46,656 nucleotides of DNA from Pseudomonadota bacterium (GTDB lineage Bacteria > Desulfobacterota > Desulfobulbia > Desulfobulbales > Desulfocapsaceae), in assembly GCA_018817385.1 (NCBI GenBank), contig JAHIUA010000071.1, positions 1 to 46,656 on the forward strand. The letters are read 5' to 3'. Made by a program: the position numbers and the translations under genes. The stretch's first letter is position 1; every line of letters begins with the position of its first letter. A model generated the notes under the pieces. The model was not told the origin of the DNA. It ran no database searches and saw only the letters and a program-made list of their open reading frames with translations. Positions 18,565-46,520 of the stretch are shown in pieces.

Positions 18565-18601
18565 AGTGTACATCCTTTGCGATATCGGTATGTTAAAAAT
18601 T

Positions 18602-18713
18602 GTTCAGGAGCCGTTAGAAAATAACTTTGGCCATTTCTATCCATGGTGTTACGGACCTTATGCCGTCCCGAGCATTGCTCTGACCATGTTATTTTTGACA
18701 ACAGCTTGGTACG
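18602..18713 (+). repeat. Dispersed non-coding repeat, family 1, copy 1
   Basis: This aligns with 27009-27125 in the same orientation at roughly 75-80 percent identity over about 110 bp. Conserved blocks are GTTCAGGA, CTTATGCCGT, CGAGCATT and CCATGTTATTTTT. It fills the gap between cobU and cobT, the only wide gap in the first half of the operon, so it was probably inserted there. No frame through it is open in both copies. Confidence 0.65.
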
Positions 18714-18729
18714 AAAGTTCAGAGTATGG

Positions 18730-19281: not shown

Positions 19282-19868
19282 GCGCTAGCCCCTAAATTAA
19301 GACCGGTGAGAACGCCTCCCTCTTTGAAGAGGTTCAGGGTGGCAAACCTGCCCTTATCTATTTGGAAGAGGAGAAAATCACTTGGCACAAGTTTCAGGAA
19401 ATAACAGAGAAGGGTACGAATAACACCACCGTGTGAAATCAAGAGGGTCGTTTTTTCACGAGAAGCACTCAACTGTTCCCCAACAGTGTGAATTCGATTT
19501 AGAAAGCTGCCGATACGTTCGCCCTGAGGAAAACAAAAATCACGTGACCAGGTGGCCCACTGATCGACCAGACCAGGATCGGCCTTTTTTATTTCGGCAA
19601 AGCTCAGGCCTTCCCAGTGACCAAAATCGATCTCACGCAACGCGTTATCATAGCGGATAGAACGTTCAGGAAAGAGGATTTCAGCGCATTGCCGACAACG
19701 CTCCATGGGACTGGAGATGATCAGATCGATATCCTGATCCTGGAAAATCGTCTTCAGATCCCTGAGTTGGGAAACCCCTGCAGAGGAAAGCGGGACGTCA
19801 GTGGAACCGATATAGCGGTCCGGAAACCCTGTTTCACCGTGTCTCAGCAGGATGAGTCGCCGATTCAT
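19269..19868 (-). CDS. cobC: Alpha-ribazole phosphatase-like histidine phosphatase
   Basis: This is a histidine-phosphatase (phosphoglycerate-mutase-like) enzyme. In a cobalamin operon it is most likely alpha-ribazole-5'-phosphate phosphatase CobC, removing phosphate before or after CobS. The phosphohistidine motif is LILLRHGETG at residues 5-14. ISSPMERCRQCAEIL, LREIDFGHWEGLSFAEI and the second catalytic His in LLISHGGVIRTLL are present. It overlaps cbiH by 4 bp (ATGA) and cobU by 13 bp. Assignment as CobC instead of a general phosphatase rests on context. Confidence 0.88.
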   Translation of the reverse strand: MNRRLILLRHGETGFPDRYIGSTDVPLSSAGVSQLRDLKTIFQDQDIDLIISSPMERCRQCAEILFPERSIRYDNALREIDFGHWEGLSFAEIKKADPGLVDQWATWSRDFCFPQGERIGSFLNRIHTVGEQLSASREKTTLLISHGGVIRTLLCYFLKLVPSDFLLFQIDKGRFATLNLFKEGGVLTGLNLGASAWGD

Positions 19869-20683
19869 TCGCCCATACCCGCCTTTTCAGCACGTCCCAA
19901 TTCATACTTCTCTTTATAGCCCCTGGGAGTAATCATATAGCCGTTCCAGGAAAAAGTTGTTGAATTCCCTATGATAACTGTAGACTGCATGTTGATTTCT
20001 GCGTCGAGCATGTGCTCAAGAGTGGTGAGACAGATCGATTCATTCTCCCGGCTGGCAGCGGTAACGATACCAACCGGTGTCTTGGCATCTCGATGGCGAA
20101 GGATGATCTCCCTGGCCTTGACGATATGTTCGGTACGTTTTTTAGACTTGGGGTTATAGAGGGCAATCACAAAATCAGCAGAGGCAGCAGCAGCAAGTCG
20201 TTTTTCTATCACCTGCCAGGGGGTAAGGAGATCGGAAAGACTGATAGCGGCAAAGTCATGCATGAGCGGAGCCCCCAGTCGTGCGGCACAACCGTTGACT
20301 GCAGCGATCCCGGGAATCACTTCGATTTTGACCCGACTGTCTGCCTTGGCAGCGATCTCAAAGACCAGACCAGCCATGGCATAGATCCCCGGATCTCCAC
20401 CTGAGACCAGGGCGACACGTTTACCCGCCCCGGCAAGCTCAAAAGATGCGTTGCAGCGATCCACCTCCTGCATCATCGCAGAGGAGAGTATCTCTTTTCC
20501 CGCGAGCAGTTCCGGAATAAGATCGAGATAGGTCTTATAGCCAATAATGATATCGGCCCTGTTGAGGGCACTGACCGCCTGTGGCGTCATATTCTCTCTA
20601 CTTCCGGTCCCGGTGCCGACTACACTGATCAGGCCAAGAGCCGGATCTGCTTCGTGGCGACTGCTGCTGTTACATCTTTCCAT
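19865..20683 (-). CDS. cbiH: (Cobalt-)precorrin-3B C17-methyltransferase
   Basis: This SAM-dependent tetrapyrrole methyltransferase methylates C-17 and contracts the ring. Signatures are ISVVGTGTGSRENMTPQAV, ADIIIGYKTYLDLI, VALVSGGDPGIYAMAGLVFE (SAM-binding GDPG), VIPGIAAVNGCAARLGAPLMHDFAAISL and DFVIALYNPKSKKRTEHI. The 272 residues include an extra N-terminal tail of about 15 residues overlapping cbiG by 55 bp. The true start could be slightly later, but no better codon is seen. The partner CbiG upstream acts on the lactone formed by this enzyme, so the pair marks the anaerobic (early cobalt) pathway. Confidence 0.93.
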   Translation of the reverse strand: MERCNSSSRHEADPALGLISVVGTGTGSRENMTPQAVSALNRADIIIGYKTYLDLIPELLAGKEILSSAMMQEVDRCNASFELAGAGKRVALVSGGDPGIYAMAGLVFEIAAKADSRVKIEVIPGIAAVNGCAARLGAPLMHDFAAISLSDLLTPWQVIEKRLAAAASADFVIALYNPKSKKRTEHIVKAREIILRHRDAKTPVGIVTAASRENESICLTTLEHMLDAEINMQSTVIIGNSTTFSWNGYMITPRGYKEKYELGRAEKAGMGE

Positions 20684-21621
20684 TTCTTTTTCCTTACAAT
20701 CAGTTGGCCTGGGCCGAGATCTGTTTCCGCACCAAGAACTGCGGCCGGTTCGGCCACCCCTTTGGCACCAGTAGCTGCTAAAACTGCTGCCGAAGTGGAA
20801 ACGCCTTGAACTGCGTTTAACTGTTCCTTGGTGTAAAAGCGCAGAGGAATTCCTTCAGCAAGGGCAAAATCGAGCAAGCCCTGCTCATCATTTTTCAGGT
20901 CAATGGAGGCAAAACTACAAATTGCCGTACGCGCCAGACCTTCATCTTGACAGAGTTCATCGAGAGCTGCTTGGAAATCCTCTTTTTTGCACCCTCTATT
21001 GCATCCCAGCCCCACCGTGAGTGTGCGAGGTTGTAAGAGAAGTCCACGGCAGTCCGGATACGCCCGGTGGGCAACGATGATATCAGCGTTGGACGGGGTC
21101 GGGACAAGGTGAAAATCATCGGGCAAAGACACATTTTCATATTCTGAAAAGAGTTGCAGCCATCCTTCGTTGACCAGTTTGGCCGACATTGCGGTCAGTT
21201 TTTTTCTGTTCTCTACAAAGAGATTGTTCTTTTCTGCCCAGAGATCAAGAGCAGTATGGCCAGTCACATCCGAGGCCGTAGTGATAACAGCTTGTCCTCC
21301 TAGCTTCCGGGCAAGCTCAATGGCGAGTCTGTTTCCTCCTCCAAGATGTCCGGAAAGGAGACTGATAACAAAACGTCCTTTCTCATCAAGGACCAGTACA
21401 CACGGATCATTTTTTTTGTTCTGACAGAGTGGGACGAGACCGCGGACCACAATTGCTGCAGCCATCACGCAGATCAGGCAATCCACCTCCTGCCACAGTT
21501 CAGCCATTTTGGTAAAGACCGGTACCGTTCTGGTATCCATAAAACAATCAGGCTGCAGACGACAAATATTTTTCGCCAGTTTCTTCCCCCCTCTGGTCAG
21601 TGCGATAACGGCTATTTTCAT
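20629..21621 (-). CDS. cbiG: Cobalt-precorrin-5A hydrolase
   Basis: CbiG opens the ring-A lactone of cobalt-precorrin-5A and releases acetaldehyde, a step specific to the anaerobic pathway. The N-terminal domain contains MKIAVIALTRGGKKLAKNI and DCLICVMAAAIVVRGLVPL. The middle has VISLLSGHLGGGNRLAIELA and VITTASDVTGHTALD. The C-terminal domain has LTVGLGCNRGCKKEDFQAAL, ICSFASIDLKNDEQGLLDFA and VQGVSTSAAVLAATGAKGVA. All three family domains are present over 330 residues. It is the first gene of the operon; about 300 bp of divergent intergenic DNA lies upstream, in which I could not recognise a cobalamin riboswitch. Confidence 0.95.
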   Translation of the reverse strand: MKIAVIALTRGGKKLAKNICRLQPDCFMDTRTVPVFTKMAELWQEVDCLICVMAAAIVVRGLVPLCQNKKNDPCVLVLDEKGRFVISLLSGHLGGGNRLAIELARKLGGQAVITTASDVTGHTALDLWAEKNNLFVENRKKLTAMSAKLVNEGWLQLFSEYENVSLPDDFHLVPTPSNADIIVAHRAYPDCRGLLLQPRTLTVGLGCNRGCKKEDFQAALDELCQDEGLARTAICSFASIDLKNDEQGLLDFALAEGIPLRFYTKEQLNAVQGVSTSAAVLAATGAKGVAEPAAVLGAETDLGPGQLIVRKKKWKDVTAAVATKQIRLLA

Positions 21622-33130: not shown

Positions 33131-33208
33131 GGTGGGTGTAGCTCAGCTGGTGGTAGCACCTGGTTGTGGCCCAGGAGGTCGTGGGTTCAAGTCCCATCAC
33201 TCACCCCA
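33131..33208 (+). tRNA. tRNA-His (GTG)
   Basis: The cloverleaf folds fully. The acceptor stem GTGGGTG pairs with CACTCAC (one G-U), with the extra G(-1) at 33131 opposite C73, the identity mark of tRNA-His. The D-arm is GCTC...GAGC-like. The anticodon stem is CCTGG/CCAGG with loop TTGTGGC (anticodon GTG). The T-arm is GTGGGTTCAAGTCCCAT. CCA is encoded at 33206-33208. A promoter precedes it and a strong terminator follows. Confidence 0.97.
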
Positions 33209-34237: not shown

Positions 34238-35161
34238 TCAGACTGTACCTTCTTTCTGCCTCTGTTTCTTGGCAAAATTAGCGGCTTCCATGCCAGCTAC
34301 GCACCCTTCTCCCACAGCTTTGGCCATCTGATAGGGATGCCCGGTGATATCCCCTGCCGCATAGACACCGGCCACATTGGTCTCTGCCTTCTTATTGGTC
34401 TCTATGTGACTCATGGTATCCATGTCCAGCTGTATACCAATCTCCAAGGCCAACTCCATTGCCCCTTTGGCACCAAGCTCAATAAAGACGCCTTCCAGGC
34501 TTAACTCGTTGCCACTTTCCAGGAGGATACTTTGCACAGCGCCATCTCCCTGTATTGCGCTGACCCAGGTACCAGGGACACTCTCGACTGTCGATTCTGC
34601 AAGTTTTTTTAAGAGATCAGGAGAAGCGACGAGATTCCGACTCACCAGATACACCTTTGAGGCATAGCCAGTCAGGGTCAGGGCTCCGTCGATGGCTGCA
34701 CTGGCATTACCAACAACCGCTACAACGGCATTTCTGTAAAAGTTGGCATCACAATCCACACAGTAGGAAACCCCTCTGCCGAAGAATTCCTTTTCTCCCG
34801 GGACCTTCAGTTTTTTTCGAGAAGTACCGTTGGCAAAGATGACGGTCCTGGTAATAACAGTCGATCCCCCCTCAAGATCCAGGGAAAACCCCCCATCTTT
34901 TTCCTCATGGATTTTCAGGACATCCTCATCCATCACGGTCGCACCAAAATTTCTGACCTGGGAAATCCCTGCCTCCAGAAGTTCCTGACCCGAAGTAATA
35001 CCAGCAACACAGGCATAATTTTCCACATGCGCAGTGTAGAGGGCACTCCTTTCAATTCGTCCCAGCAGCAGGACATCACATTTCTTACGAACGGCATGGA
35101 TGGCAGCCTGAATCCCTGCGGGTCCTGCACCAATAATCACAACATCTTTCATTTCTTTCAT
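34238..35161 (-). CDS. Thioredoxin-reductase-like FAD/NAD(P) oxidoreductase
   Basis: This 307-residue flavoprotein has the thioredoxin reductase fold. The FAD domain starts VVIIGAGPAGIQAAIHAVRK. The NAD(P) domain has VAVVGNASAAIDGALTLTGY. A redox-active CVDCDANF (CxxC) is present, as in bacterial TrxB, and the C-terminal GVYAAGDITGHPYQMAKAVG closes the FAD site. It should pass NAD(P)H electrons to thioredoxin or a related protein. The NADPH-specific HRR motif of classical TrxB is not evident (VYLVSRNLVA follows the loop), so cofactor and partner may differ. The start overlaps a possible small upstream frame by one base (TAATG). It is divergent from the lipid cluster. Confidence 0.85.
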   Translation of the reverse strand: MKEMKDVVIIGAGPAGIQAAIHAVRKKCDVLLLGRIERSALYTAHVENYACVAGITSGQELLEAGISQVRNFGATVMDEDVLKIHEEKDGGFSLDLEGGSTVITRTVIFANGTSRKKLKVPGEKEFFGRGVSYCVDCDANFYRNAVVAVVGNASAAIDGALTLTGYASKVYLVSRNLVASPDLLKKLAESTVESVPGTWVSAIQGDGAVQSILLESGNELSLEGVFIELGAKGAMELALEIGIQLDMDTMSHIETNKKAETNVAGVYAAGDITGHPYQMAKAVGEGCVAGMEAANFAKKQRQKEGTV

Positions 35162-35408: not shown

Positions 35409-36647
35409 ATGGATATACAACAACACAGGATCGTAATTACCGGTGTCGGCCTTGCCGCGCCAAATGCCGACAATCTTATCGATTTTCGAAAGAAGTTGTT
35501 GGCAGGCAGCAGTGGAATAACAGAGGTGGACCTTCGCTACTTCGGCAAAGCCCCTGCCGGCATCTGCAACTTCCCCGAAACCAAATATAGGAAAAAGAAG
35601 GAAAACAAACGGGGAACCCGTGCCGGTTGCTTTGGCGTTTATTGCGCCAACGAAGCGCTGGTAGACGGAAATCTTTCCATTGAACACTATTCCCCTTCCC
35701 GGATAGGTGTCTATATAGGACTCACTGAACATGGGACCGTGGAAACGGAAAACGAGGTCTACAACATCAGCCAATACGGCTATAACGTTGATTATTGGAC
35801 CCATCATCACAATCCAAGAACCGTACTCAATAACCCGGCTGGTGAAATCACCATGAATCTGGGGATCACCGGACCGCACTATGCCATCGGGGCAGCCTGT
35901 GCGGCCGGCAATGCTTCTCTGATTCAGGGAGTGCAGATGATGCGCCTGGGAGAGGTGGACATGGCCCTTGCCGGAGGGATATCCGAATCAACCGGCTCAT
36001 TTGGTATCTTTGCCAGTTTTCAGGCCCAGGGCGCTCTTGGTTCTGCTCCGGACCCGAAACAGGCCTGCAGACCCTTTGACATGTCCCGTAACGGTATTGT
36101 CGTTTCGGAAGGTGCTTGTATCTATGTCCTTGAACGCCTGGATAATGCTTTAGCCCGGGGAGCGAAGATTTATGCGGAGATCGTTGGCTATGCCATGAAC
36201 TCAGATGCTCGTGACTTTGTCCTGCCCTATGATGTCCGGCAGGCAGAATGTATGGAACTGGCCCTGAAGAGAGCAGGACTGCAGCCTGAGGATATCGATA
36301 TTATCAACACCCATGCCACCGGGACAAGGCAGGGAGACATCGAGGAATGCAAGGCCATCCGTAAGGTCTTTGCCAATGCGCCTGCGACCTACATCAACAA
36401 CACCAAAAGTATTATTGGTCATGCCATGGGGGCAGCCGGTGTTCTGGAACTTGCAGGAAATCTTCCTGCCTTTGAAGATAATCTTGTCCACCCCACCATC
36501 AACGTTACAGATCTTGACCCTGAGTGTCGACTGCACAATATGGTTATTGATCAGCCGGTTCAGCTTGATTCGGTACAAACTATCCTCAACAACTCCTTTG
36601 GCATGGTAGGAATCAACTCGGTGGTCATTGCAAAAAAGTACAATTAA
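35409..36647 (+). CDS. Beta-ketoacyl-ACP synthase (FabF-like)
   Basis: This condensing enzyme of 412 residues has the KAS II type Cys-His-His triad: Cys164 in AIGAACAAGNASL, His302 in INTHATGTRQGD and His338 in SIIGHAMGAAG. It elongates acyl chains with malonyl-ACP. The N-terminal RIVITGVGLAAPN and C-terminal NNSFGMVGIN are typical. It starts a plus-strand cluster (ACP, two CrtI-like oxidoreductases, FabG, FabZ) and is not a normal fab operon (no fabD, fabH, plsX or acpP beside it), so a special acyl chain is likely. It is transcribed divergently from the thioredoxin-reductase-like gene. A gap of 167 AT-rich bases separates it from the ACP. Confidence 0.92.
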   Translation: MDIQQHRIVITGVGLAAPNADNLIDFRKKLLAGSSGITEVDLRYFGKAPAGICNFPETKYRKKKENKRGTRAGCFGVYCANEALVDGNLSIEHYSPSRIGVYIGLTEHGTVETENEVYNISQYGYNVDYWTHHHNPRTVLNNPAGEITMNLGITGPHYAIGAACAAGNASLIQGVQMMRLGEVDMALAGGISESTGSFGIFASFQAQGALGSAPDPKQACRPFDMSRNGIVVSEGACIYVLERLDNALARGAKIYAEIVGYAMNSDARDFVLPYDVRQAECMELALKRAGLQPEDIDIINTHATGTRQGDIEECKAIRKVFANAPATYINNTKSIIGHAMGAAGVLELAGNLPAFEDNLVHPTINVTDLDPECRLHNMVIDQPVQLDSVQTILNNSFGMVGINSVVIAKKYN

Positions 36648-36814
36648 ACAGCTCATTGTAGTAAAATAAGATATTTTTAAAAATAATTATAAAAAAGTCA
36701 TTCCAGGTATGGTATAAAGAGCAGTTTTCCTGACGCATCTGGACCTATTACTGTTTTATTTTATACTGATATAATATCTTCAAATGAAGATTCAGGCCAT
36801 GGCCGGAGAATGAT

Positions 36815-37066
36815 ATGACACGTGACGAAATAAAAGACCTTATTCTGGAAATCATAGAAGACATTGATGAAGATGCCGATTTTGATGCCCTCCAGGCAGA
36901 CAAACCCTTGCGCGATCAACTCGATCTCGACTCAATGGATTTTCTGGATATCGTGATGGAATTGCGCAAGCGCCACAAGCTGCAGATCCCTGAAGAGGAT
37001 TACCCCCAGCTTGCCACCCTTGACTCCTGCGTGAACTACCTGGAGCCTCTTCTCACTGACGCGTAA
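36815..37066 (+). CDS. Acyl carrier protein of the lipid cluster
   Basis: This 83-residue acidic carrier protein has a phosphopantetheine attachment Ser40 in LDLDSMDFLDIVMEL, in place of the usual DSL. The four-helix pattern is complete (ILEIIEDIDEDADFD first helix, LQIPEEDYPQL third). DSMDF instead of DSLD marks it as a dedicated ACP, not the housekeeping one. TAA is followed three bases later by the GTG of the next gene. TATAAT upstream (about 36771) may be a promoter. Confidence 0.92.
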   Translation: MTRDEIKDLILEIIEDIDEDADFDALQADKPLRDQLDLDSMDFLDIVMELRKRHKLQIPEEDYPQLATLDSCVNYLEPLLTDA

Positions 37067-37068
37067 AA

Positions 37069-38454
37069 GTGCATGTACCCTTTCTGATTATCGGCGGCGG
37101 TCTTTCCGGACTTGCCGCCGCTCTTCGTTTTGCCCGTTTTCTTCCCGACGTCCTGCTCCTGGAAAAACACTCTCGTGTGGGTGGCCTCAATTCCTATTAC
37201 TACCGGAATAACAGGCTGTTTGAGACAGGTCTGCATGCCATCACCAATTACGCTCCAGCCGAGATAAAAAACGCACCCTTGAATCGCCTCCTGCGCCAGT
37301 TAAAGATCAAGCGCAGAGAACTGGACCTCCATCAACAGATTGGAAGCGAAGTCCGCTTTATGGGCCGTGAATCCCTGCTCTTCTCCAATGATTTTGGCCT
37401 CCTGGACACAGAAATCGCCAGCAAATTTCCTGGCTCCTACAATCGTTGGCAGCACCTCCTGCAACTGATAGAGGAGTACGACCCTTTTCGTCCCGCGCCC
37501 TTTCTTTCAGCGAAAAAAGTCCTCCGTGAAACCCTTGCCGACAATCTCCTGACAGATATGCTCCTCTGCCCACTGATGTACTATGGATCTTCCCTGGAAA
37601 ATGATATGGACCTGGGTCAATTTGTTATCATGTTCCGGGCCATCTTCCTGGAAGGGATGTTCCGGCCAGGAGGCACGATCAAAGATATCCTCGACCTCCT
37701 CCTTTCTCATTACCAGGCACACGGCGGCAAGATCCGAACCAAGGCCGCAGTCTCCCGTATCATCAGTTCCGGTAAGAGAGTACAGGGTGTCGTCTTGACG
37801 AGCGGAGAGGAGATAAGTTGTGATTACCTCCTCTCCACCATCGGCTCAGAAGAGACCTTTGCCCTCCTCCATAAGCCTTGTCCCCTTGAATCTCTGCCAA
37901 GACTTGGTTTTGTTGAGACCATCTTTGAGCTTCGTCCCGAGACTTCCCTGCCGCGTTCCGAAAACCGTACAATCATCTTCTATAATACTACGGCCACATT
38001 TTCCTATCAGCAGCCCCAGACGCTCGTTGATTTTAACAGCGGAGTCATCTGCCTGCCGCAGAATTTTCAGGACCTTTCGCCTTCTCCTTTCAAAGAGGTG
38101 CGTACCACCCATCTGGCAAGTTATGAACAGTGGCACACCCTTGGCGATGGTCAGTCTGCTTATAATTCTGCCAAAGAAGACACAGCCCTTGCCTCACGTG
38201 AAGTCGCTGAGAAAATCCTTGGTAATTTTGCCGAAAACATTGTATATCGTGATACTTTCACACCACTGACCATTGAGCGTTTTACCGCAAAAAAACAAGG
38301 GGCCATTTATGGCAACCCAGTAAAAATCAAAGATGGCGACATTGGATATAACAACCTCTTTCTAGCAGGGACAGACCAAGGATTTTTGGGAATCGTAGGC
38401 GCCATGTTGAGTGGTGTCTCTATTGTCAACCAGCATATACTTCCCCGCCTCTAA
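37069..38454 (+). CDS. CrtI/phytoene-desaturase-like FAD oxidoreductase 1
   Basis: This 461-residue FAD-dependent oxidoreductase belongs to the phytoene desaturase / retinol saturase superfamily. The dinucleotide-binding motif is LIIGGGLSGLAAALRFARF, then LLLEKHSRVGGLNSYYY; the end has LFLAGTDQGFLGIVGAMLSG. It begins with GTG at 37069, three bases after the ACP stop. Such enzymes desaturate or isomerise hydrophobic chains, normally isoprenoids; next to an ACP and ketosynthase the substrate is likely an acyl chain. It is clearly different from the second copy downstream. No carotenoid genes (crtB, crtE) lie nearby, so a carotenoid role is unlikely. Confidence 0.88.
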   Translation: MHVPFLIIGGGLSGLAAALRFARFLPDVLLLEKHSRVGGLNSYYYRNNRLFETGLHAITNYAPAEIKNAPLNRLLRQLKIKRRELDLHQQIGSEVRFMGRESLLFSNDFGLLDTEIASKFPGSYNRWQHLLQLIEEYDPFRPAPFLSAKKVLRETLADNLLTDMLLCPLMYYGSSLENDMDLGQFVIMFRAIFLEGMFRPGGTIKDILDLLLSHYQAHGGKIRTKAAVSRIISSGKRVQGVVLTSGEEISCDYLLSTIGSEETFALLHKPCPLESLPRLGFVETIFELRPETSLPRSENRTIIFYNTTATFSYQQPQTLVDFNSGVICLPQNFQDLSPSPFKEVRTTHLASYEQWHTLGDGQSAYNSAKEDTALASREVAEKILGNFAENIVYRDTFTPLTIERFTAKKQGAIYGNPVKIKDGDIGYNNLFLAGTDQGFLGIVGAMLSGVSIVNQHILPRL

Positions 38455-38494
38455 GCCCAAATACACACCTCCATCTTCACCAAAAAATATCATT

Positions 38495-39904
38495 ATGCCA
38501 GTTCCATTTGCCCAAACAACTGATAAATATGATGTGATTGTAATCGGTTCAGGTCTTGGCGGACTGACCTCTGCTAATCGTCTTGCTTATTGCGGCTACA
38601 AAGTCCTGCTCCTCGAATATCACAGCCAGCTGGGAGGACTTGCCACCTGGTTTAAACGAAAGGGTCATATCTTTGATGTCTCCCTGCACGGTTTTCCTTA
38701 TGGGATGGTCAAGACCTGTAAGAAATATTGGAACCGGGAAATCATGAACTCCATTGTTCAACTCAAAAATATCATTTTTGATAACCCACAGTTTCACCTG
38801 AAAACCACCTTTGACCGCATAGACTTTACTGAAAAACTGATTTCCCACTTCAAGATCCCGCAATCAACCATAGATGCCTTTTTTACCCGAGTGGCGGGGA
38901 TGAATTTCTATGACGATCAAACCATGACCACCAGGGAACTTTTTGATGAGTACTTTCCTGGCCGCAGCGATGTCCATCGCCTGCTCATGGAACCCATCAG
39001 CTATGCCAACGGTTCCACCCTGGATGATCCGGCCATCACCTATGGAATCGTCTTTTCAAATTTTATGAGCAAGGGGGTATTCACCTTTGAGGGCGGGACC
39101 GACAAGCTGATCGGAATGATGGCCAGCGAGCTTGAAAAAAATGGGGTGACCATCTGTACCAACTGCAAGGTCGACCGCATCGTCGTCGATAAAGGCCAGG
39201 TCCGAGGCGTTGAATGCAGAGGAAAAATGATCTCCGCTCCCAGTGTGGTCTCCAATTCGGGTATCACCAATACTATCTATAATCTGGCCGGTAAAGAAGC
39301 CTTCTCCGACACCTTCATGGAAAAGGCTGACAAGGTACGGGTCAACAACTCATCCTGCCAGGTTTACATGGGCATCAAGAAGGAAGAATCCTTTGCTGAT
39401 ATAGGTGATCTCCTCTTTACCTCCACGGCCCCTGAATTTAACGCCACCGAGCTCTGCGACCTCCATACCCGTTCAAAGACATTCTCCGTCTACTATCCAA
39501 AGACTCGGCCTGGCCATAATCGTTACACCATCGTGGCCTCCATGAACGCCAACTACGATGACTGGAAAAAATTCGACAAAAAGCAGTATGCACTTGAGAA
39601 AGAAGCTCTCATAGAGCGAACCCTTACTGACCTTGAGCGCTATCTCCCGGAAGTCAGAGAGAAGATAGATTGGGTAGAGGCTGCCACTCCCAGCACTTTC
39701 AACCGCTACACCCTTCATACCCGAGGCACTTCTTTTGGCACCAAGTTCGAAGGGCTCGATGTCTCTCGCTCTATATTCAAAGAGGTGGATGGACTCTTTC
39801 ATGTGGGCTCAGTTGGGATTATCATGTCTGGCTGGCTGGGGGCCATCAATTATGGCGTCATTGCCTCCAACGATGTAGACGCATTCATGCGCAGCAGGGA
39901 TTAA
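38495..39904 (+). CDS. CrtI/phytoene-desaturase-like FAD oxidoreductase 2
   Basis: This is a second, diverged member of the phytoene desaturase-like family (469 residues). FAD site: YDVIVIGSGLGGLTSANRLA and LLLEYHSQLGGLATWFKRK. C-terminal FAD closure: LFHVGSVGIIMSGWLGAINY. The start is ATG 38495 (MPVPFAQTTDKYD), 40 bp after the first copy; an upstream in-frame ATG at 38411 lies inside that gene. Two distinct paralogues in one cluster suggest successive desaturation or isomerisation steps. The fabG-like gene follows 6 bp later. Confidence 0.88.
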   Translation: MPVPFAQTTDKYDVIVIGSGLGGLTSANRLAYCGYKVLLLEYHSQLGGLATWFKRKGHIFDVSLHGFPYGMVKTCKKYWNREIMNSIVQLKNIIFDNPQFHLKTTFDRIDFTEKLISHFKIPQSTIDAFFTRVAGMNFYDDQTMTTRELFDEYFPGRSDVHRLLMEPISYANGSTLDDPAITYGIVFSNFMSKGVFTFEGGTDKLIGMMASELEKNGVTICTNCKVDRIVVDKGQVRGVECRGKMISAPSVVSNSGITNTIYNLAGKEAFSDTFMEKADKVRVNNSSCQVYMGIKKEESFADIGDLLFTSTAPEFNATELCDLHTRSKTFSVYYPKTRPGHNRYTIVASMNANYDDWKKFDKKQYALEKEALIERTLTDLERYLPEVREKIDWVEAATPSTFNRYTLHTRGTSFGTKFEGLDVSRSIFKEVDGLFHVGSVGIIMSGWLGAINYGVIASNDVDAFMRSRD

Positions 39905-39910
39905 GCAAGC

Positions 39911-40651
39911 ATGCAAGATTTCACAGGACAAAAAGTTGTCATCAGTGGTGCCAGCCGAGGTATTGGCAAGGGCATAGCTCGGGCCTTTCTGGAGCAAGGC
40001 GCCACGGTTATCGGTGTCTATGGCGGGAACCGGGAAGCAGCCGATAAGCTTCGAGAAGAATGTATTGCCTTTGGTGACCGGCTCCAGCTCCATCAATGCG
40101 ATGTTTCCAAGCCCTCCCAGGTGGAGAGCTTTTTCCAACAAGTTGAAGATGAATTTGACACCATTGATATCCTCATCAACAATGCAGGTATCCGCCGTGA
40201 CAAACTCCTGGCCCTGATGGATATGGAAAGCTGGCAACAGGTGCTTGATATAAACCTGACCGGTACCTTTATCATGTCACAACGGGCAGTCTTATTGATG
40301 CTTAAGCAGAAATATGGCCGTATCATCAACATCACCTCTCCTGTTGCCAGCATGGGTTTGGCTGGCCAGACAAACTATGGCGCTTCCAAAGCAGGTCAGA
40401 TAGGACTGATGAGGAGTCTTTGCAAAGAGACTGCCAGAAAGAAAATCACCGTCAACTGCATCTCTCCCGGATTCATCGATACCGATCTCCTGGACGACCT
40501 TTCTGAGGAGCAGATCAAGGCCTACAAAAGAATGGTTCCCATGCGGCGATTTGGCAAGGTTGAAGAAGTCGCAGCTGCTGTACTTTTCCTTGCCTCAAAA
40601 AATGCCGCCTATATAACCGGCACGGTACTTGATATTAATGGGGGGCTCTGA
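39911..40651 (+). CDS. 3-oxoacyl-ACP reductase (FabG-like SDR)
   Basis: This classical short-chain dehydrogenase of 246 residues has NADP-binding ISGASRGIGKGIA, NNAG at about residues 92-95, catalytic Ser in ITSPVASMG and YGASKAG (Tyr, Lys). PGFIDTDLLDDL and TGTVLDINGG are typical FabG endings. It would reduce the 3-keto group made by the cluster ketosynthase. Its stop is 3 bp before the dehydratase GTG, so both are co-translated. Confidence 0.92.
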   Translation: MQDFTGQKVVISGASRGIGKGIARAFLEQGATVIGVYGGNREAADKLREECIAFGDRLQLHQCDVSKPSQVESFFQQVEDEFDTIDILINNAGIRRDKLLALMDMESWQQVLDINLTGTFIMSQRAVLLMLKQKYGRIINITSPVASMGLAGQTNYGASKAGQIGLMRSLCKETARKKITVNCISPGFIDTDLLDDLSEEQIKAYKRMVPMRRFGKVEEVAAAVLFLASKNAAYITGTVLDINGGL

Positions 40652-40654
40652 TCA

Positions 40655-41095
40655 GTGATTCAGGATATTTCAATTACCGATCTTATTCCACACCGTCCTC
40701 CGTTTCTCTGGGTCGACACGTTGCTGGAGTATGATTCCTCATCACTGCTAGCAGAAAAACATATCCCGGAAACACTTGACATCTTCCAGGGACACTACCC
40801 CGATCATCCCATCCTTCCCGGTGTCCTTCTCTGCGAGGCCCTCTTCCAGACCGGTGCCATACTCATCGCCCTCCTCCTCAAAGAGAACAACGATACACGT
40901 TCAGGAGTACCTGTGCTGACCCGCATAGAAGGAGCACGGTTCAAACGTGCCGTAGGGCCTGGGGACACCATACGTATGCATGTCCGTATCAAAGAAAATC
41001 TTGGCGGGGCCTGGTTTTTGAAAGGAACGCTGCGCGTCAGGGAAAAGGTGGCGGTCAGCGTGAACTTTTCCTGTACCCTTGCTGAACTGCAATGA
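40655..41095 (+). CDS. 3-hydroxyacyl-ACP dehydratase (FabZ-like hotdog)
   Basis: This 146-residue hotdog-fold protein has the FabZ catalytic pair His47 and Glu61 in FQGHYPDHPILPGVLLCEAL. IPHRPPFLWVD opens the fold as in FabZ. It would remove water from the 3-hydroxyacyl-ACP. It starts with GTG, 3 bp after the fabG-like stop. Its stop TGA overlaps the ATG of a small Cys-rich frame (ATGA). No enoyl reductase is present in the window, so dehydration could leave the double bond in place. Confidence 0.92.
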   Translation: MIQDISITDLIPHRPPFLWVDTLLEYDSSSLLAEKHIPETLDIFQGHYPDHPILPGVLLCEALFQTGAILIALLLKENNDTRSGVPVLTRIEGARFKRAVGPGDTIRMHVRIKENLGGAWFLKGTLRVREKVAVSVNFSCTLAELQ

Positions 41096-41292
41096 CAAAT
41101 GGTTCAGAACAAGAAGGACTCGAACCTCTTTTCACCTGCATCTTCTGTGGCGAGCAGAGTGGTCACCTGCATGGGTGTTGACACAACGCCACCATTATCT
41201 GCACGGCGTGCGGAATGGAAACTGCGGCATCTGACTACGACGACCAACTTCAGGATTATATTAACCATCTTTGCCGGCTGGCTGGAGATTGA
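41092..41292 (+). CDS. Candidate selenoprotein or UGA-broken Cys-rich protein (66 codons)
   Basis: The ATG overlaps the fabZ stop as ATGA. The frame reads MTNGSEQEGLEPLFTCIFCG, then EQSGHLHGC, UGA (41179-41181), HNATIICTACGMETAASDYD and on to a UGA at 41290-41292. Without the first UGA it would be a 66-residue protein with two CxxC motifs (CIFC and CTAC), a zinc-ribbon-like layout; the UGA follows a Cys, giving Cys-Sec if read as selenocysteine. A stem-loop after the UGA fits bacterial SECIS rules (separate entry). Start coupling, and Cys codons on both sides, favour a real gene. The alternative is a nonsense mutation of TGG or CGA. Another frame (from 41099) is open without stops but encodes no Cys pattern. 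Confidence 0.5.
41198..41214 (+). promoter_or_regulatory. Candidate bacterial SECIS stem-loop
   Basis: T198-CTGCAC (41198-41204) pairs with GTGCGGA (41208-41214), seven pairs including one G-U, around a GGC loop at 41205-41207. The loop starts 23 bases after the UGA and its first base is G. Published bacterial SECIS rules ask for a G in the first two loop bases and 16-37 bases of spacing. A competing stem, CGCC with GGCG, is possible. Unverified. Confidence 0.35.
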
Positions 41293-41543: not shown

Positions 41544-42245
41544 GTGCAGCTCTCAATTTCCAACATGATTATGCATGCCGGTCCCATGGGACAAATGGTA
41601 ATGCTCACCCTCCTGATTTTTTCTCTTGCCTCCTGGTCCATCGTCTTCATGAAGGTCAGACTGTTTAAAAAAGCAGGGAGGGAAAGCGGTCAATTCCTCG
41701 ATGCCTTCTGGTCTTCCAGTACCCTGAGTGATGCTGCTGCCTCTGCTGAGCGCTACCCAGCAAGTCCAGAAGCCATGATCTTCACCTCGGGCTATATAGA
41801 ACTGCAGAAAATAAACAAAATCCGTAACCGTAAAGAAGGGAGACAAGGGCCTGAAACCCTGGAGATGCAACTGGCCACCATGGACAACCTGAAACGGGCC
41901 ATACGCCGTGCCGAATCCCAGGAATTAAACGAACTTGGCAGGTCTCTTCCTTTTCTTGCTACCACTGGCTCTGCTGCACCTTTCATCGGACTCTTCGGAA
42001 CAGTCTGGGGAATCATGGCCTCATTTCATGATATCGGTCTTCGTGGTTCTGCATCCCTGGCAGTCGTCGCTCCCGGTATTTCTGAGGCCCTTGTTGCTAC
42101 TGCAGCAGGCCTCGCTGTAGCTATTCCTGCTGTCATCGCCTACAATTTTTTTTCCAACAAACTGACCGAGATTGAGAATGAAATGGAAAACTTTTCCACT
42201 GATTTTCTCAACCTGGTGGAAAGAGACATGCTGAGCAAGATTTGA
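41544..42245 (+). CDS. tolQ: TolQ, proton channel subunit of the Tol-Pal system
   Basis: TolQ is an inner-membrane protein that, with TolR, uses the proton gradient to drive TolA and keeps the outer membrane constricted at division. The 233 residues have three membrane segments: about 17-36 (QMVMLTLLIFSLASWSIVFM), about 137-158 (LPFLATTGSAAPFIGLFGTV), and about 174-200 (VAPGISEALVATAAGLAVAI). The GSAAPFIGLFGTVWGIM motif is characteristic. It begins with GTG at 41544 behind GAGGGA. It opens the tolQRA-B-cpoB block. Confidence 0.95.
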   Translation: MQLSISNMIMHAGPMGQMVMLTLLIFSLASWSIVFMKVRLFKKAGRESGQFLDAFWSSSTLSDAAASAERYPASPEAMIFTSGYIELQKINKIRNRKEGRQGPETLEMQLATMDNLKRAIRRAESQELNELGRSLPFLATTGSAAPFIGLFGTVWGIMASFHDIGLRGSASLAVVAPGISEALVATAAGLAVAIPAVIAYNFFSNKLTEIENEMENFSTDFLNLVERDMLSKI

Positions 42246-42287
42246 CCAGGTTCTCATAAATTAATATTTTTCAGATGGCTAACTAAA

Positions 42288-42707
42288 ATGGGATTCAGTT
42301 CAGGAAAAGGACGTCGAGGCCTGGTTTCAGAGATCAATGTCACCCCCATGGTGGATGTGATGCTGGTACTGCTTATCATCTTCATGGTCACAGCTCCTAT
42401 GATGACTCAAGGCTTAGAGGTGGACCTGCCTGAGACAACCGCCCGCTCCCTTGTCCAGGAAGACGAACCAATTGTGATCACCCTGGATAAAGAGGGAAAA
42501 ATCACTGTTGGCAAGCTGGAGGTTGTGAAGGCCCTGTTGCGACAGGAGCTGCAAAAAGAGTACACCAAAAATAAGGACCAACCTATCTTTCTCAAGGCAG
42601 ACAAACAGGTGCCCTACGGTCTGGTAGTTTCCATTATGTCTGAAGTAAAGGCTGCCGGATTTGACAAATTAGGGATGATTACTCAACAAAAAGAAGAAAC
42701 CCGCTGA
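42288..42707 (+). CDS. tolR: TolR, proton-driven partner of TolQ
   Basis: This is a 139-residue ExbD/TolR family protein. One membrane helix follows the typical EINVTPMVDVMLVLLIIFMV, whose Asp is the proton-binding residue; the periplasmic part (TQGLEVDLPETT, IFLKADKQVPYGLVVSIMSE) is complete. It couples proton flow through TolQ to TolA. It sits 42 bp after tolQ and 1 bp before tolA. Confidence 0.95.
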   Translation: MGFSSGKGRRGLVSEINVTPMVDVMLVLLIIFMVTAPMMTQGLEVDLPETTARSLVQEDEPIVITLDKEGKITVGKLEVVKALLRQELQKEYTKNKDQPIFLKADKQVPYGLVVSIMSEVKAAGFDKLGMITQQKEETR

Positions 42708-42708
42708 T

Positions 42709-43638
42709 ATGGTCTATAAAGAATACCGCATGACCGCAACATCCTCCCCGTCCTGGAAACTGCCTTTCAACCTGGCAATTCTTTTACACATCCTTATTCT
42801 CTCATCTGCCATTCTTCTCCCCAAATATCTCCACAAAAACCGGATGATTCAAGACACATATACTGTTGACCTGATCTCCATTGCAGAGCCCCCTGCTGCA
42901 GCCCCTTCTCCGCCTGCGGCAGCCCCTCCAGCACCAGCACCAGCACCAGCACCGCCTGCTGTTAAAATCGCACAACCTAAGGAGGTGGCAGTAAAAAAAA
43001 TAGTTCCCATTCCGGCACCGATCAGCGAAGCAGTGAAGCCAGAACCGGTACAGGCTATTTCCATCAAGCCTCTGAAACAAAAGCTTAAAAACAAGAACAT
43101 TCCTGATCTCCTCGCCCAGCAGGCCAGAGAACAACGAGAACTAGAGAAAAAGCGCGAGCAACGTGCGTTACAACAGCAACTGATTGCAGAGGCCAGGCGA
43201 CAACAGGCCCTGGCCGACGCTGAGGCAAAGATCGCTGCCAGCGAGGCAGTCAATGCTCTCAAACAAATGCTCCAAGCCGATGCAATAGCTTCTTCCACAA
43301 AAGCCGGGCAGCAATCTTCTGCCAGATCCGCAAGAAATACATCAAATGCCATAGAATCCCAATATCAGGCCAACATTGCTGGTCGCCTCCATCAATTCTG
43401 GGCCTTGCCTGATATTAAACCCTGGGATTCTGATCTTACTGCTGTGGTCATTATTGTCATTTCCCAAAATGGACAAATTATCAGCCACAGCTTCGAGAAA
43501 AGATCAGGAGACAGGGTGTTTGACCAGTTTGTTAGTCGCACAATTCAAGATGCTAATCCGTTGCCACCGATTCCCGGTGCATTAAAAAGACAGCAATACA
43601 CCATTGGGCTCCACTTTAAGCCCGGTGAAATCCTTTAA
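42709..43638 (+). CDS. tolA: TolA-like trans-envelope protein (TonB C-terminal)
   Basis: This 309-residue protein spans the envelope. An N-terminal membrane helix (about 20-42, LAILLHILILSSAILLPKYL) is followed by a Pro/Ala-rich stretch (about 60-90), a long charged helical domain (AREQRELEKKREQRALQQQL), and a C-terminal TonB/TolA-type domain (AVVIIVISQNGQIISHSFEK, LPPIPGALKRQ). It links TolQR in the inner membrane to Pal/TolB. The start at 42709 is one base after tolR; an ATG at 42730 is possible. Low-complexity sequence is expected in TolA. Confidence 0.9.
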   Translation: MVYKEYRMTATSSPSWKLPFNLAILLHILILSSAILLPKYLHKNRMIQDTYTVDLISIAEPPAAAPSPPAAAPPAPAPAPAPPAVKIAQPKEVAVKKIVPIPAPISEAVKPEPVQAISIKPLKQKLKNKNIPDLLAQQAREQRELEKKREQRALQQQLIAEARRQQALADAEAKIAASEAVNALKQMLQADAIASSTKAGQQSSARSARNTSNAIESQYQANIAGRLHQFWALPDIKPWDSDLTAVVIIVISQNGQIISHSFEKRSGDRVFDQFVSRTIQDANPLPPIPGALKRQQYTIGLHFKPGEIL

Positions 43639-43696
43639 GCCGGTACCCCATCTTTTCTTGGGACAATGGTATGTTACCGGTAACTGTCCAGTTAGT

Positions 43697-43813
43697 GCCC
43701 ATTAATTGGCAACCAAGCGCTTTGTAACCTGTTCAGCAGTGTTTTATATTCGTTCACTTAGGACTTCGAAGCATACGAGTGCTATTCGAAAAGACCTGAA
43801 TGAACGAAGATGA
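43697..43813 (+). repeat. Dispersed non-coding repeat, family 2, copy B
   Basis: This is the plus-strand partner of the minus-strand copy at 10272-10400 (about 70 percent identical over about 115 bp). It lies in the 376-bp gap between tolA and tolB (43639-44014). The rest of that gap shows no gene. A short minus frame (43744-43941) overlaps the repeat and looks spurious. Confidence 0.6.
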
Positions 43814-44014
43814 AGTGCTGCCCAATAGTTACTTTTGCCGCTAAAAAGGTTGACTGCTTTCAGGAACCTTTTATAATTAGCATATTGTCTTTTTTCCTTT
43901 CTCAAGCAGCATAAGTCCTTGGGTGATTTGAGCACCTTCACAACAAAGAGACACTCGGTAAAGGTTTTAATTTTTTATTATCATAAGCGATAAAATCAGC
44001 ATAAAGGCCCAACA

Positions 44015-45307
44015 ATGCAACCCTTGATCACCCGTTTTTTCTTGTTCTTTTTTCTTCTTCTTGCCCTGCTTCCCCACTCACTCCAGGCACAGGATATAGT
44101 TTATCTTGATATAACGTCACCTGAAGCGCGTAAGATAAACATCGCAGTCCCCTGGTTTATTAATAAAGGACAACCAGAACAGTTGCAGCCCTTTGGCCGT
44201 GAACTTGCCAAAACACTCTCCGACACCCTTATCTTTCACGGAATCTTCGCCCTCATCGATGAAGAGAAATACGGTAGGCGGCAAGATGCTGACTGGAAAT
44301 CGCTTGGGGCCGATTTTGTTATGCTCGGGAGCTACAACGTCTCTGGCAGCGGTATCCAGTTAGAACTCCGCCTCCTTGATGTGGCCGGTGGCGATATGCT
44401 GATGGGAAAAAGATATAATGGAATCAGAGAACAGCAACAGGACATGCTGTTCAAGTTTTCTGATGCCGTCATCCTGGAGCTGACCGGAAATCCCGGCATT
44501 TCCTCCTCCCAGATCGCCTTTGTATCCGATCGCAGCGGCCATAAAGAAGTCTATCTCACCGATATCCTTGGCAGGGAGGAAAGACAGGTAACACGTCATA
44601 AAAATCTGGCTGTTTCACCTCGTTTCGTCCCTGGCGGCAGGTTCCTCACCTATACCTCCTATCATGCCGGAAACCAGAATCTGTATATTACCGACCTTCA
44701 GCAGAGCCAGACCACTCGTCCCCTGTCCCGGAGAAAAGGAATGAACCTTGCCCCTGCCTGGTCATCTGATGGGGACAAGATGATCCTTACCCTGAGCAAA
44801 GATGGAAACCCCGATCTCTTTCTCATGAACCGAAAAGGAGAGGTTCTGAAACAACTGACCAGCCGTTCCGGAATTAATGTCTCTCCCTCATATTCACCAG
44901 ATAACAAAATGCTGGCCTTTGTCTCTGACAGGAGCGGACGGCCTCAGGTCTATCTTATGGAACTCAACAGCGGCAAGGCGCAGCGTCTCACCTTCAAAGG
45001 GTCTGAAAACGCAGAGCCTTGCTGGTCGCCCCAGGGAGATTTGATCGCCTATTCCAGTCTTATCGATGGCTCGTATCAGATATTCACCATTGCCCCTGAA
45101 CCTGGTGCCACACCAAACCAGGTCACCAATGGGCCTGGCCACCATGAATCTCCATCCTGGTCACCGGATGGAAAGCAGATCCTCTTTTCTCTGCGCAACG
45201 GACAGGGGCAGAAGATCCATGCAATCTTGAAAAACGGCAGCAACCAACGTCAACTCTTTAATTTTCCAGGAAATCAAACCTATCCTCGCTGGTCAAACAT
45301 TCAATAA
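44015..45307 (+). CDS. tolB: TolB, periplasmic beta-propeller of the Tol-Pal system
   Basis: This is a 430-residue periplasmic protein. Signal peptide about 1-24 (FFLFFFLLLALLPHSLQAQD). The N-terminal domain is followed by a six-bladed propeller made of repeats such as QIAFVSDRSGHKEVYLTDI, LAPAWSSDGDKMILTLSKDG, VSPSYSPDNKMLAFVSDRSG and PSWSPDGKQILFSLRNGQ. It binds Pal, and TolA in other bacteria. It is encoded about 375 bp after tolA with a repeat between them, so it may have its own promoter. No pal gene follows directly. Confidence 0.95.
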   Translation: MQPLITRFFLFFFLLLALLPHSLQAQDIVYLDITSPEARKINIAVPWFINKGQPEQLQPFGRELAKTLSDTLIFHGIFALIDEEKYGRRQDADWKSLGADFVMLGSYNVSGSGIQLELRLLDVAGGDMLMGKRYNGIREQQQDMLFKFSDAVILELTGNPGISSSQIAFVSDRSGHKEVYLTDILGREERQVTRHKNLAVSPRFVPGGRFLTYTSYHAGNQNLYITDLQQSQTTRPLSRRKGMNLAPAWSSDGDKMILTLSKDGNPDLFLMNRKGEVLKQLTSRSGINVSPSYSPDNKMLAFVSDRSGRPQVYLMELNSGKAQRLTFKGSENAEPCWSPQGDLIAYSSLIDGSYQIFTIAPEPGATPNQVTNGPGHHESPSWSPDGKQILFSLRNGQGQKIHAILKNGSNQRQLFNFPGNQTYPRWSNIQ

Positions 45308-45503
45308 AAGTGTTCCAGTTCAAGGGGAAAAAACTAACGGCAGGAGGCAAGAAAATCCAAATTGAACTTCATTGTTCTACTTAAATGAAAACCAATAATT
45401 ATTCCATTTGAAACCTATTATTTTTTTCTTCAGCCTTCAACCCTTTGCCTGAGCACCTGAATAGTTACACATTCCTTACGATACTCCACATAGAGGCAGT
45501 TTC

Positions 45504-46520
45504 ATGAAAAAACGATATCTTACTTCATTATTACTCCTTGGCATCATGCCCTTTCTCACCAACTGTGCTACCCAGGATGATGTAAATTCTCTCAATTACA
45601 ATGTTCGCGCACTGAATAAAAAAGTCGAAGACATGAAAGACAATACTGTTGGTCAGATGCAACAGCGACAGGCAAGTTCTTCAGGTCTGATGGATCAGCT
45701 ACAGGCCGATATTCTTCAGCTCAAAAGTCAACTCGACGAAAACAATCATACCAATCGTATGCTCCAGGAACAAAACAAGGAACTGGAACTGGCCATATTG
45801 AACCTGAAAGAAAAACAGGCACAGGAGCTCAGTGCCAAGCTCGCTGAACAGGACGACAAAATCAAACGCCAGGAAGATTCTCTGGCCTCTATCCGCCAGG
45901 CACGAATAGATGAGGCCGAAAGGCGTTCCAAAGCAGCAGCAATGGCAGCAGAAGCTGCCATGCGCAAGGCAAAAGAGGCAAGTGCTTCCCAGGCAAGCAC
46001 TTACCAGCCGAGCAACAGTCACATTACTGCAACTTCGCAAAAAAAAGTCCACACTCGTGCCGCTTCAACTCCGCAGCCTGCTGCAAAACCTGAGATACAA
46101 GCCGTCGTAGCACCCAGTTCAGCAGAACCTTCTGTCACCAAGACAGCCACAGCCACTGTTGACTTTTTTTCCCAGGGCCAGGAGAAGTACAACAAAGGCC
46201 AATATGATGAAGCCTATGCTCTTTTTGAAAAGCAGATAGAAAAAGAGGGGGTAAAGCAGTCCACAATCTCTGCCCGTTATATGATGGGTGAATGTCTCTT
46301 TAAAAAGGGCGAATATGATCAGGCCATCATTCAATATCAGCAGATTATCTCTAATTTTCCCGGAAATCCGCAGGCAGCCAAGGCCCTGTTGAAACAGGGA
46401 GAAGCATTTGAGCAACTCTCTGACAATGAGACCGCCAAAATCATCTACAAGAAAGTAACGGCCTCTTATGGCTCCACGCCCGAAGCTGAAATCGCCAGAA
46501 AACGTATATCATCACTCTAG
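45504..46520 (+). CDS. CpoB/YbgF-like lipoprotein with coiled coil and TPR
   Basis: This 338-residue protein begins with a lipoprotein signal (LLLLGIMPFLTNCATQ, lipobox LTNC). A long coiled coil follows (about 30-160; KNKVEDM-like and ELELAILNLKEKQAQELSAK). The Ala/Pro/Thr-rich linker (about 160-220) leads to a C-terminal TPR domain (FFSQGQEKYNKGQYDEAYAL, SARYMMGECLFKKGEYDQAI, KALLKQGEAFEQLSDNETAK). This matches CpoB (YbgF), which ties Tol to peptidoglycan synthesis; lipidation is unlike the soluble E. coli CpoB. The stop codon TAG is part of the CTAG that precedes the second MITE-like copy. Confidence 0.88.
   Translation: MKKRYLTSLLLLGIMPFLTNCATQDDVNSLNYNVRALNKKVEDMKDNTVGQMQQRQASSSGLMDQLQADILQLKSQLDENNHTNRMLQEQNKELELAILNLKEKQAQELSAKLAEQDDKIKRQEDSLASIRQARIDEAERRSKAAAMAAEAAMRKAKEASASQASTYQPSNSHITATSQKKVHTRAASTPQPAAKPEIQAVVAPSSAEPSVTKTATATVDFFSQGQEKYNKGQYDEAYALFEKQIEKEGVKQSTISARYMMGECLFKKGEYDQAIIQYQQIISNFPGNPQAAKALLKQGEAFEQLSDNETAKIIYKKVTASYGSTPEAEIARKRISSL

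Follow-up and report, generated by a model that had tools for sequence, protein, structure and literature searches.

The window analyzed here, the whole of contig C18 (46,656 bases) from a 5.38 Mb genome designated G000, carries a run of six genes that encode a beta-ketoacyl-ACP synthase (KS), a dedicated acyl carrier protein (ACP), two flavoproteins of the CrtI type (Ox1 and Ox2), a FabG-like reductase and a FabZ-like dehydratase (Table 1). Judged from their sequences and those of relatives, these six genes and a FabI-like enoyl reductase probably make up a discrete type II polyunsaturated fatty acid (PUFA) synthase that is independent of both oxygen and Pfa proteins, and that feeds its chains to OleA for a C31:9-type hydrocarbon product. 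In this host the acyl product is most likely 16:4n-3. The host is a Desulfocapsa-like, sulfur-cycling member of the order Desulfobulbales. Its nearest named relatives include metagenome-assembled genomes of Desulfocapsa, and the top Ox2 match is 95% identical (among the best 80 of 327 relatives).

All six open reading frames (ORFs) were found on one strand at the positions given by the initial annotation, which had described them as mostly separated by a few bases. This description is fair, since all gaps are 2-6 bases apart from those between KS and ACP (167) and between Ox1 and Ox2 (40). The open frame of Ox2 extends upstream to 38411. Once shortened or stop-bearing sequences had been removed, alignments that include 3-10 sequences per gene from outside the order show invariant active sites: a Cys, two His and a Lys in KS (73 of 73 sequences), Ser, Tyr and Lys in FabG (82 of 82), and His and Glu in FabZ (79 of 79). 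The Ser of the ACP is kept in all 76 aligned sequences, as is the DSMDF motif that the annotation had pointed out. The active-site roles of the aligned motifs in these four proteins are those we presume them to have. The proteins diverge to different degrees from their family models: KS scores 308.5 bits against the fabF model (cut-off 493.75), FabG 292.6 against 3oxo_ACP_reduc (cut-off 297.75) and FabZ 112.6 against the FabZ model (cut-off 113). A promoter/terminator scan stayed near the shuffled level (11 found versus 7.7, and 5 versus 6.5).

The six genes form a conserved unit and are no chance grouping. A synteny search of the kind that the annotation had recommended was run on named genomes, where the best 80 relatives were kept as loci; D. 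psychrophila and the anammox bacteria are not among them. The complete set KS-ACP-Ox1-Ox2-FabG-FabZ occurs in this order and on one strand in 58 of the 63 loci that have enough flanking sequence. Cultured strains among the carriers include Desulfopila aestuarii DSM 18488 (L064), Desulfosediminicola flagellatus (L087), Desulforhopalus singaporensis DSM 12130 (L097) and Desulfofustis glycolicus DSM 9705 (L104). The exceptions to the complete order are L078, where FabG was not found, L107, where FabZ was not found, and L115, L126 and L128. In L116, L126 and L128 (the last titled Candidatus Electrothrix gigas), Ox2 lies apart from its partners or other ORFs interrupt the set. A TolQ homolog lies downstream of the set in 53 of the 80 loci, as it does in the window. 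Separately, locus L031 (genome G023) holds a divergent set (KS 63%, ACP 62%, Ox1 40%, FabZ 39%) with no Ox2 on its map.

The genes that follow the set in relatives suggest where its product goes. Downstream regions were surveyed in 86 loci, the 80 named ones and six from other families of the order, and 21 of these lack tol genes and extend for 4.8 kb or more past Ox2. Among these 21, FabZ is followed on the same strand by FabI and then OleA in 17; OleB is present in 16, OleC in 15 and OleD in 12, and some stretches end early. Three genomes from a distant family (L153, L154 and L155, Ox2 56-57% identical) show a second, independent arrangement, in which Ox1 and Ox2 flank the ole genes within the set: KS-ACP-Ox1-OleA-OleB-OleC-OleD-Ox2-FabG-FabZ-FabI. 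The annotation's statement that there is no enoyl reductase and no isoprenoid gene holds for the six-gene run. In relatives, however, FabZ is followed by a FabI-like reductase, and one is also encoded elsewhere in G000 (C82:138565-139371, 74% identical). None of the four ole genes is linked to the set in the window itself, though all were found in G000: OleA at C82:178881-179912 (66% identity), and OleB, OleC and OleD on contig C29 (55.6, 58.0 and 59.1% identity by blastp).

The names of the linked genes were checked by profile models on locus L120. Its OleA matches '3-oxoacyl-ACP synthase III' (NF006720, 443.9 bits) above the cut-off, a protein type that we take to be OleA. OleC matches 'fatty acid CoA ligase family protein' above the cut-off and the olefin beta-lactone synthetase model at 534.5 bits (cut-off 850). 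The remaining matches are a short-chain dehydrogenase/reductase of the FabI type (161.4 bits, cut-off 362), a haloalkane-dehalogenase-type hydrolase for OleB (164.3 bits, cut-off 241) and 2-alkyl-3-oxoalkanoate reductase for OleD (405.9 bits, cut-off 580).

Ox2 and OleA also occur together across genomes. Among 193 sampled genomes of the order, several of them incomplete, OleA is present in 145 and Ox2 in 144 (E <= 1e-60). Both are found in 139, Ox2 alone in 5, OleA alone in 6 (G025, G077, G087, G129, G190 and G192) and neither in 43, which gives a Fisher p of about 1e-30 that ignores shared descent and is inflated because of it. A sample of 395 genomes from the phylum holds 16 listed in the order and 379 others, with only four and five first-look candidates scored per genome. 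Outside the order, OleA accompanies Ox2 in 6 of 11 Ox2-positive genomes versus 24 of the 368 others (p = 5e-5). PfaA scored above its model's cut-off in 1 of the 193 order genomes, with some match at E 1e-100 in 25. At that threshold it had no match in G000, in a search that used the PfaA model on two first-look candidates per genome and did not cover PfaC. The conserved set and its linkage to ole and FabI in relatives support the annotation's proposal of a private acyl line that may make a polyunsaturated chain; such a product is probable.

The chemistry of 16:4n-3 limits how such a line could operate. All programs of seven two-carbon cycles were enumerated, with the new trans-2 bond of each cycle being reduced (S), left at C2 (A) or moved to C3 (B). 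The sole program that yields 16:4n-3 is S-B-A-S-B-A-S, and none does so with only A or only B. The machinery therefore needs a reductase and two distinct bond-setting outcomes. Because FabI and two flavoproteins are present in the conserved set, Ox1 and Ox2 are proposed for these two outcomes. KS would elongate the chain on the dedicated ACP, and FabG and FabZ would reduce and dehydrate it to trans-2-enoyl-ACP. This intermediate would then have three fates: saturation by the FabI-like enzyme, a shift to cis-3 by one CrtI-like flavoprotein, or conversion to cis-2 by the other. FabZ itself might carry out one of the two bond-setting steps. The line would most likely end in 16:4n-3-ACP, two such chains would be condensed by OleA, and OleBCD, encoded elsewhere in the genome, would finish the C31:9-type hydrocarbon. 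Head-to-head joining of two 16:4n-3 chains gives 3,6,9,12,15,19,22,25,28-C31H46 when computed.

Several steps of this scheme have precedents. According to the accessible text of the sources, OleA of Shewanella condenses two 16:4n-3 chains made by Pfa and OleBCD finish the 31:9 product (Allemann 2019, PMC6463001; PMC4882568), and pfa together with oleA gives a 31:8 ketone in E. coli (Allemann 2019, PMC6463001). FabA-like dehydratase domains are described as introducing the cis bonds in PUFA synthases (PMC9667614), and FabX is described as a flavoprotein that makes cis-3-enoyl-ACP and needs oxygen (PMC8626469). A lipid extract of Desulfotalea psychrophila is reported to contain C31:8 (4%) and C31:9 (1%) and no ladderanes (Rattray 2009, PMC2649909), and a reviewer's comment printed with that paper notes that polyketide-type PUFA genes are absent from this species. 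That Ox1 and Ox2 are isomerases that set cis bonds on trans-2-enoyl-ACP is a tentative assignment. The fuller proposal is advanced with the same reserve: this may be the first discrete type II PUFA synthase, its CrtI-family flavoproteins possibly acting as redox-neutral trans-2/cis-3 and trans-2/cis-2 enoyl-ACP isomerases that replace the FabA-like domains of Pfa, in a line that ends in OleA.

Some observations weigh against a line that makes C31:9 through OleA. In the window's own family, none of the 38 tol-type loci that continue for 8.9 kb or more downstream has FabI or OleA linked to the set (OleD lies beyond the tol genes, on the opposite strand, in 19 of them), and neither gene was seen in 4 of the 21 loci without tol genes (L116, L126, L128 and L027). 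FabI, OleB, OleC and OleD of L120 all fall below the specific cut-offs of the models they are named after. Five order genomes with Ox2 have no OleA match (G074, G092, G096, G099 and G179), nor do 5 of the 11 Ox2-positive genomes outside the order (G204, G212, G249, G284 and G556). Since G212, G249 and G284 keep Ox1-Ox2-FabG without an OleA match, the acyl line can have another outlet, and in this lineage it may feed another product. None of the 14 control genomes of the PfaA search was positive and none is a known Pfa carrier, so that search has no positive control. One review states in its available text that every C31:9 producer it knows of is also a producer of eicosapentaenoic acid (EPA) or docosahexaenoic acid (DHA) (PMC4882568), which sits ill with the C31:9 reported from D. 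psychrophila. The DP2405/DP2406 locus of that species is probably the present set, going by the gene numbering in the paper. The pathway is read here from genes, and the product of the host is predicted from them. Independently of these points, the lineage of G212, G249 and G284 has up to three Ox2 copies (L160 in G212, L161-L163 in G284 and L164 in G249), and L161 also holds KS and FabI.

The two flavoproteins are far from the characterized carotenoid enzymes in sequence and close to them in fold. The top NCBIfam model is carot_isom for Ox1 (58.6 bits, cut-off 586.9) and desat_CrtD for Ox2 (113.6 bits, cut-off 549.7), and neither protein reaches the curated CrtI, CrtD or CrtISO family cut-offs of NCBIfam. 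They are kin to each other (23% identity, hhalign probability 99.8), and Ox2 is the more conserved of the two (71-95% versus 48-87% identity in 38 relatives). The AlphaFold model of Ox1 has a mean predicted local distance difference test (pLDDT) score of 91.9 and the predicted model of Ox2 one of 84.7. For both, the carotenoid desaturase 4rep ranks first among PDB folds, at 18-19% identity, and amine oxidases and other members of the fold also match. Alignment by fold gives 13-19% identity to 4rep, 4dgk and 5mog, all of them carotenoid enzymes.

A serious rival for the role of Ox1 and Ox2, although a somewhat unlikely one, is that both are true desaturases. The chain would first be made by type II fatty acid synthesis (FAS II), the acyl-ACP would be dehydrogenated, with electrons perhaps passing to quinone, and the Ole proteins would join the chains to the same product, a scheme close to the view of Rattray 2009. 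Two observations lean toward it: the best fold match of both proteins is a carotenoid desaturase; and desaturation is favored because the authors of Rattray 2009 (PMC2649909), in the part of the paper available, read their isotope data as an indication that monounsaturated acids are precursors of the polyunsaturated hydrocarbons (PUHCs). Sequence, fold and PDB profile comparisons gave no split between isomerase and desaturase for either protein. However, the set's own KS, ACP, FabG, FabZ and FabI, which are all conserved with it, would be superfluous for desaturation after synthesis. CrtI-type enzymes, moreover, act beside existing double bonds and give conjugation, whereas the double bonds of 16:4n-3 are methylene-interrupted.

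In another, improbable alternative the line makes a conjugated polyene or aryl-polyene-like chain, in the style of flexirubin or cinnamoyl type II polyketide synthases, with the CrtI-like enzymes as late oxidases. Three points speak for such a chain: KS, ketoreductase and dehydratase activities without an adjacent enoyl reductase in the window would give a conjugated polyene by default, FabG scores 244.4 bits against the flexirubin protein FlxB (cut-off 340), and cinnamoyl clusters are described in the accessible text of PMC6510318 as using KS, ketoreductase, dehydratase, isomerase and desaturation steps. However, FabI is part of the set in relatives, the six genes include one KS and no chain-length-factor partner, and the set is linked to ole genes.

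Synthesis of ladderanes or other ring-containing fatty acids, with which the annotation had compared the set, is very improbable. Clusters of fatty acid synthesis and phytoene-dehydrogenase genes do occur in both anammox bacteria and Desulfotalea according to the text of Rattray 2009 (PMC2649909), and the phytoene-dehydrogenase-like genes it lists in these clusters include DP2405 and DP2406 of D. psychrophila, which bears out the annotation's link to Desulfotalea-like bacteria. The genes by which that paper connects anammox bacteria with Desulfotalea, radical S-adenosylmethionine (radical-SAM) enzymes and phenylacetyl-CoA ligase, are not among the six, so the comparison is apt only in part. 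The linkage of the set to oleABCD and FabI in relatives is the main clue, and it favors a polyunsaturated hydrocarbon of the head-to-head type over a fatty acid with rings. The FabZ of the window, moreover, matches 3d6x (90.7 bits), which we take to be a Campylobacter enzyme, better than 7qv0 (67.3 bits), presumably the anammox enzyme. With no radical-SAM genes in the set and no ladderanes in D. psychrophila, ladderane synthesis was dropped as the lead reading. It is scarcely credible that Ox1 and Ox2, for all their CrtI-family similarity, are diverged carotenoid genes stranded beside fatty acid genes: the Crt cut-offs lie far above their scores, their order with the Fab and Ole genes is fixed across families, and where the annotation had allowed for a carotenoid operon in close relatives, no phytoene synthase, prenyl synthase or other carotenoid gene was found among 30 further window proteins or 20 representatives of recurrent neighbor families (rarer neighbors were not scanned), so this reading was rejected.

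Table 1. Features of the window, with the six genes of the acyl set first
Feature	Position	Strand	Basis
KS, beta-ketoacyl-ACP synthase, divergent FabF-like, chain elongation	35409..36647	+	Pfam ketoacyl-synt N + C, 120.3 bits
Dedicated acyl carrier protein (ACP), DSMDF	36815..37066	+	Pfam PP-binding, 31.5 bits
Ox1, CrtI/CrtISO-like flavin adenine dinucleotide (FAD) protein	37069..38454 (GTG start)	+	Pfam Amino_oxidase, 59.8 bits
Ox2, second CrtI-like FAD protein	38495..39904 (ATG start)	+	Pfam Amino_oxidase, 47.2 bits
FabG-like 3-ketoacyl-ACP reductase	39911..40651	+	Pfam adh_short_C2, 223.8 bits
FabZ-like 3-hydroxyacyl-ACP dehydratase	40655..41095	+	Pfam FabA-like, 62.8 bits
66-aa CxxC...U...CxxC protein, selenoprotein candidate	41092..41292	+	In-frame UGA 41179-41181 between two CxxC pairs
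Thioredoxin-reductase-like flavoprotein, divergent from KS gene	34238..35161	-	TRX_reduct, 226.4 bits, cut-off 343.45
tolQ-tolR-tolA-tolB-ybgF-type neighbors, outside pathway	41544..46520	+	MotA/TolQ/ExbB, ExbD/TolR, TonB_2, TolB_N, TPR matches
tRNA-His	33132-33208	+	
Cobalamin synthesis genes	~10996-21621	-	CbiC, CbiA-type, CobD/CbiB, CobS, phosphoribosyltransferase, CobU, tetrapyrrole methylase, CbiG

The span given by the annotation, which ends at 41292, takes in a seventh small ORF that overlaps the end of FabZ by 4 bases and contains an in-frame TGA. This ORF is a strong candidate for a selenoprotein gene on the evidence of its sequence. It occurs in 78 of the 193 order genomes and has an in-frame TGA in 77 of them, the place of the TGA being checked only in 22 aligned sequences (the window and 21 loci). 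The genome G015 also has a TAG, and G002 is the only hit without TGA. The TGA is at the same site in 23 of 24 sequences, and L050 (the named copy of G002) has an Arg codon and a diverging end. No form with Cys was found among the 78 hits in the order, the only group searched. Third codon positions are the most variable on both sides of the UGA, less clearly so downstream; synonymous versus non-synonymous single-base codon differences number 861/531 upstream and 1151/1308 downstream. G000 encodes tRNA-Sec (75.8 bits, cut-off 47) and SelB (373.1 bits, cut-off 242.25). A conserved hairpin of six pairs begins about 17 bases after the UGA, with 93.9% of alignment cells paired and folding z-scores of -1.3 to +0.8 in four members, and the aligned genes gave no covariation signal for a selenocysteine insertion sequence (SECIS).

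Pfam gives weak zinc-ribbon hints for the small protein, none of them above the cut-off, and the words zinc and ribbon are not in the available text of the deep-Sep paper on new bacterial selenoproteins (PMC12013277). The protein is a candidate for a new selenoprotein family in a comparison that left out the hypothetical families DG, DW and DF of that paper. Of the genomes with the gene, 48 carry Ox2 and 28 carry neither Ox2 nor OleA; because of these 28 it is regarded as a neighbor of the lipid pathway and was rejected as a member. The thioredoxin-reductase-like gene on the other side of the set is present in 27 of the best 80 named loci. Of the 22 loci with the UGA gene, 20 have it too, so these two genes may function together. 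The other two loci, L067 and L080, start at the set or close to it. Elsewhere in the window, the ORF listed from 33132 probably starts further downstream because a tRNA-His occupies its first bases, and the cobalamin run also holds a CobQ-type gene fused to an aminotransferase.

Since 2009 it has been a question by what route C31:9 arises in an anaerobe that is reported to have no Pfa genes. With the gene linkage, the question becomes a testable pathway of some eleven discrete enzymes, which could be transferred to E. coli. The question also bears on the origin of polyene chains made without oxygen, perhaps including ladderane precursors. Should Ox1 and Ox2 be isomerases, a family of carotenoid enzymes would acquire a new reaction, and methylene-interrupted polyunsaturated chains could be reached by a compact route. 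Such lipids could be frequent where the order lives, because Ox2 is so widespread in its sampled genomes. No prior description of the ole-linked set was found in the open-licence literature. The Ole pathway itself was already known and the pathway idea had been voiced by Rattray 2009. The novel elements are the linkage to ole and FabI, seen in two arrangements, the co-occurrence, and the program that assigns the steps.

The closest known system is the Pfa PUFA synthase with OleABCD of Shewanella, Photobacterium and Geobacter bemidjiensis, which leads to 31:9. In both cases, a PUFA-type acyl line is linked physically or functionally to OleABCD, the predicted intermediate is 16:4n-3 and no oxygen is needed. 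A connection between pfa-like clusters and ole genes is drawn by Shulse and Allen 2011 (PMC3098273), whose main text does not mention Desulfotalea. The present set differs in having discrete type II enzymes and one small ACP instead of the giant PfaA-D proteins, two CrtI-like flavoproteins that are proposed to stand in for the FabA-like dehydratase domains, and FabI in place of PfaD. FabX of Helicobacter pylori, FabA and FabM set cis bonds on trans-2-enoyl-ACP during elongation, as is proposed here, and FabX is a precedent for a flavoprotein in this role (PMC8626469, in its accessible text). However, FabX comes from a different family of flavoproteins, starts with a dehydrogenation and uses oxygen, whereas many bonds per chain would be set here. 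CrtI, CrtISO and CrtD share their fold and FAD domain with Ox1 and Ox2 but differ in sequence, which lies far under the family cut-offs, and in the acyl-ACP setting of Ox1 and Ox2, which is without isoprenoid genes.

Among described clusters, the D. psychrophila locus in which two phytoene-dehydrogenase-like genes, DP2405 and DP2406, have consecutive numbers is probably the same set. The idea of a PUFA or PUHC route was voiced for the clusters of D. psychrophila and Kuenenia in that paper, whose available text suggests a novel anaerobic route that relies on desaturation, with a part for radical-SAM enzymes in pre- or post-processing, and does not contain the words 'oleA' or 'oleABCD' (Rattray 2009, PMC2649909). 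The anammox proteins kuste3336 and kuste3607 are reported to have given no lycopene in E. coli (Javidpour 2016, PMC4790861). G000 has a second acyl cluster on contig C10 (locus L167, 6789-13055), with KS, acyltransferase, B12-radical-SAM, radical-SAM/SPASM and CrtI-like proteins, and it is nearer in make-up to the Kuenenia and Desulfotalea clusters. What the present set adds to the earlier proposal is the linkage to ole and FabI, a conserved unit and a specific program.

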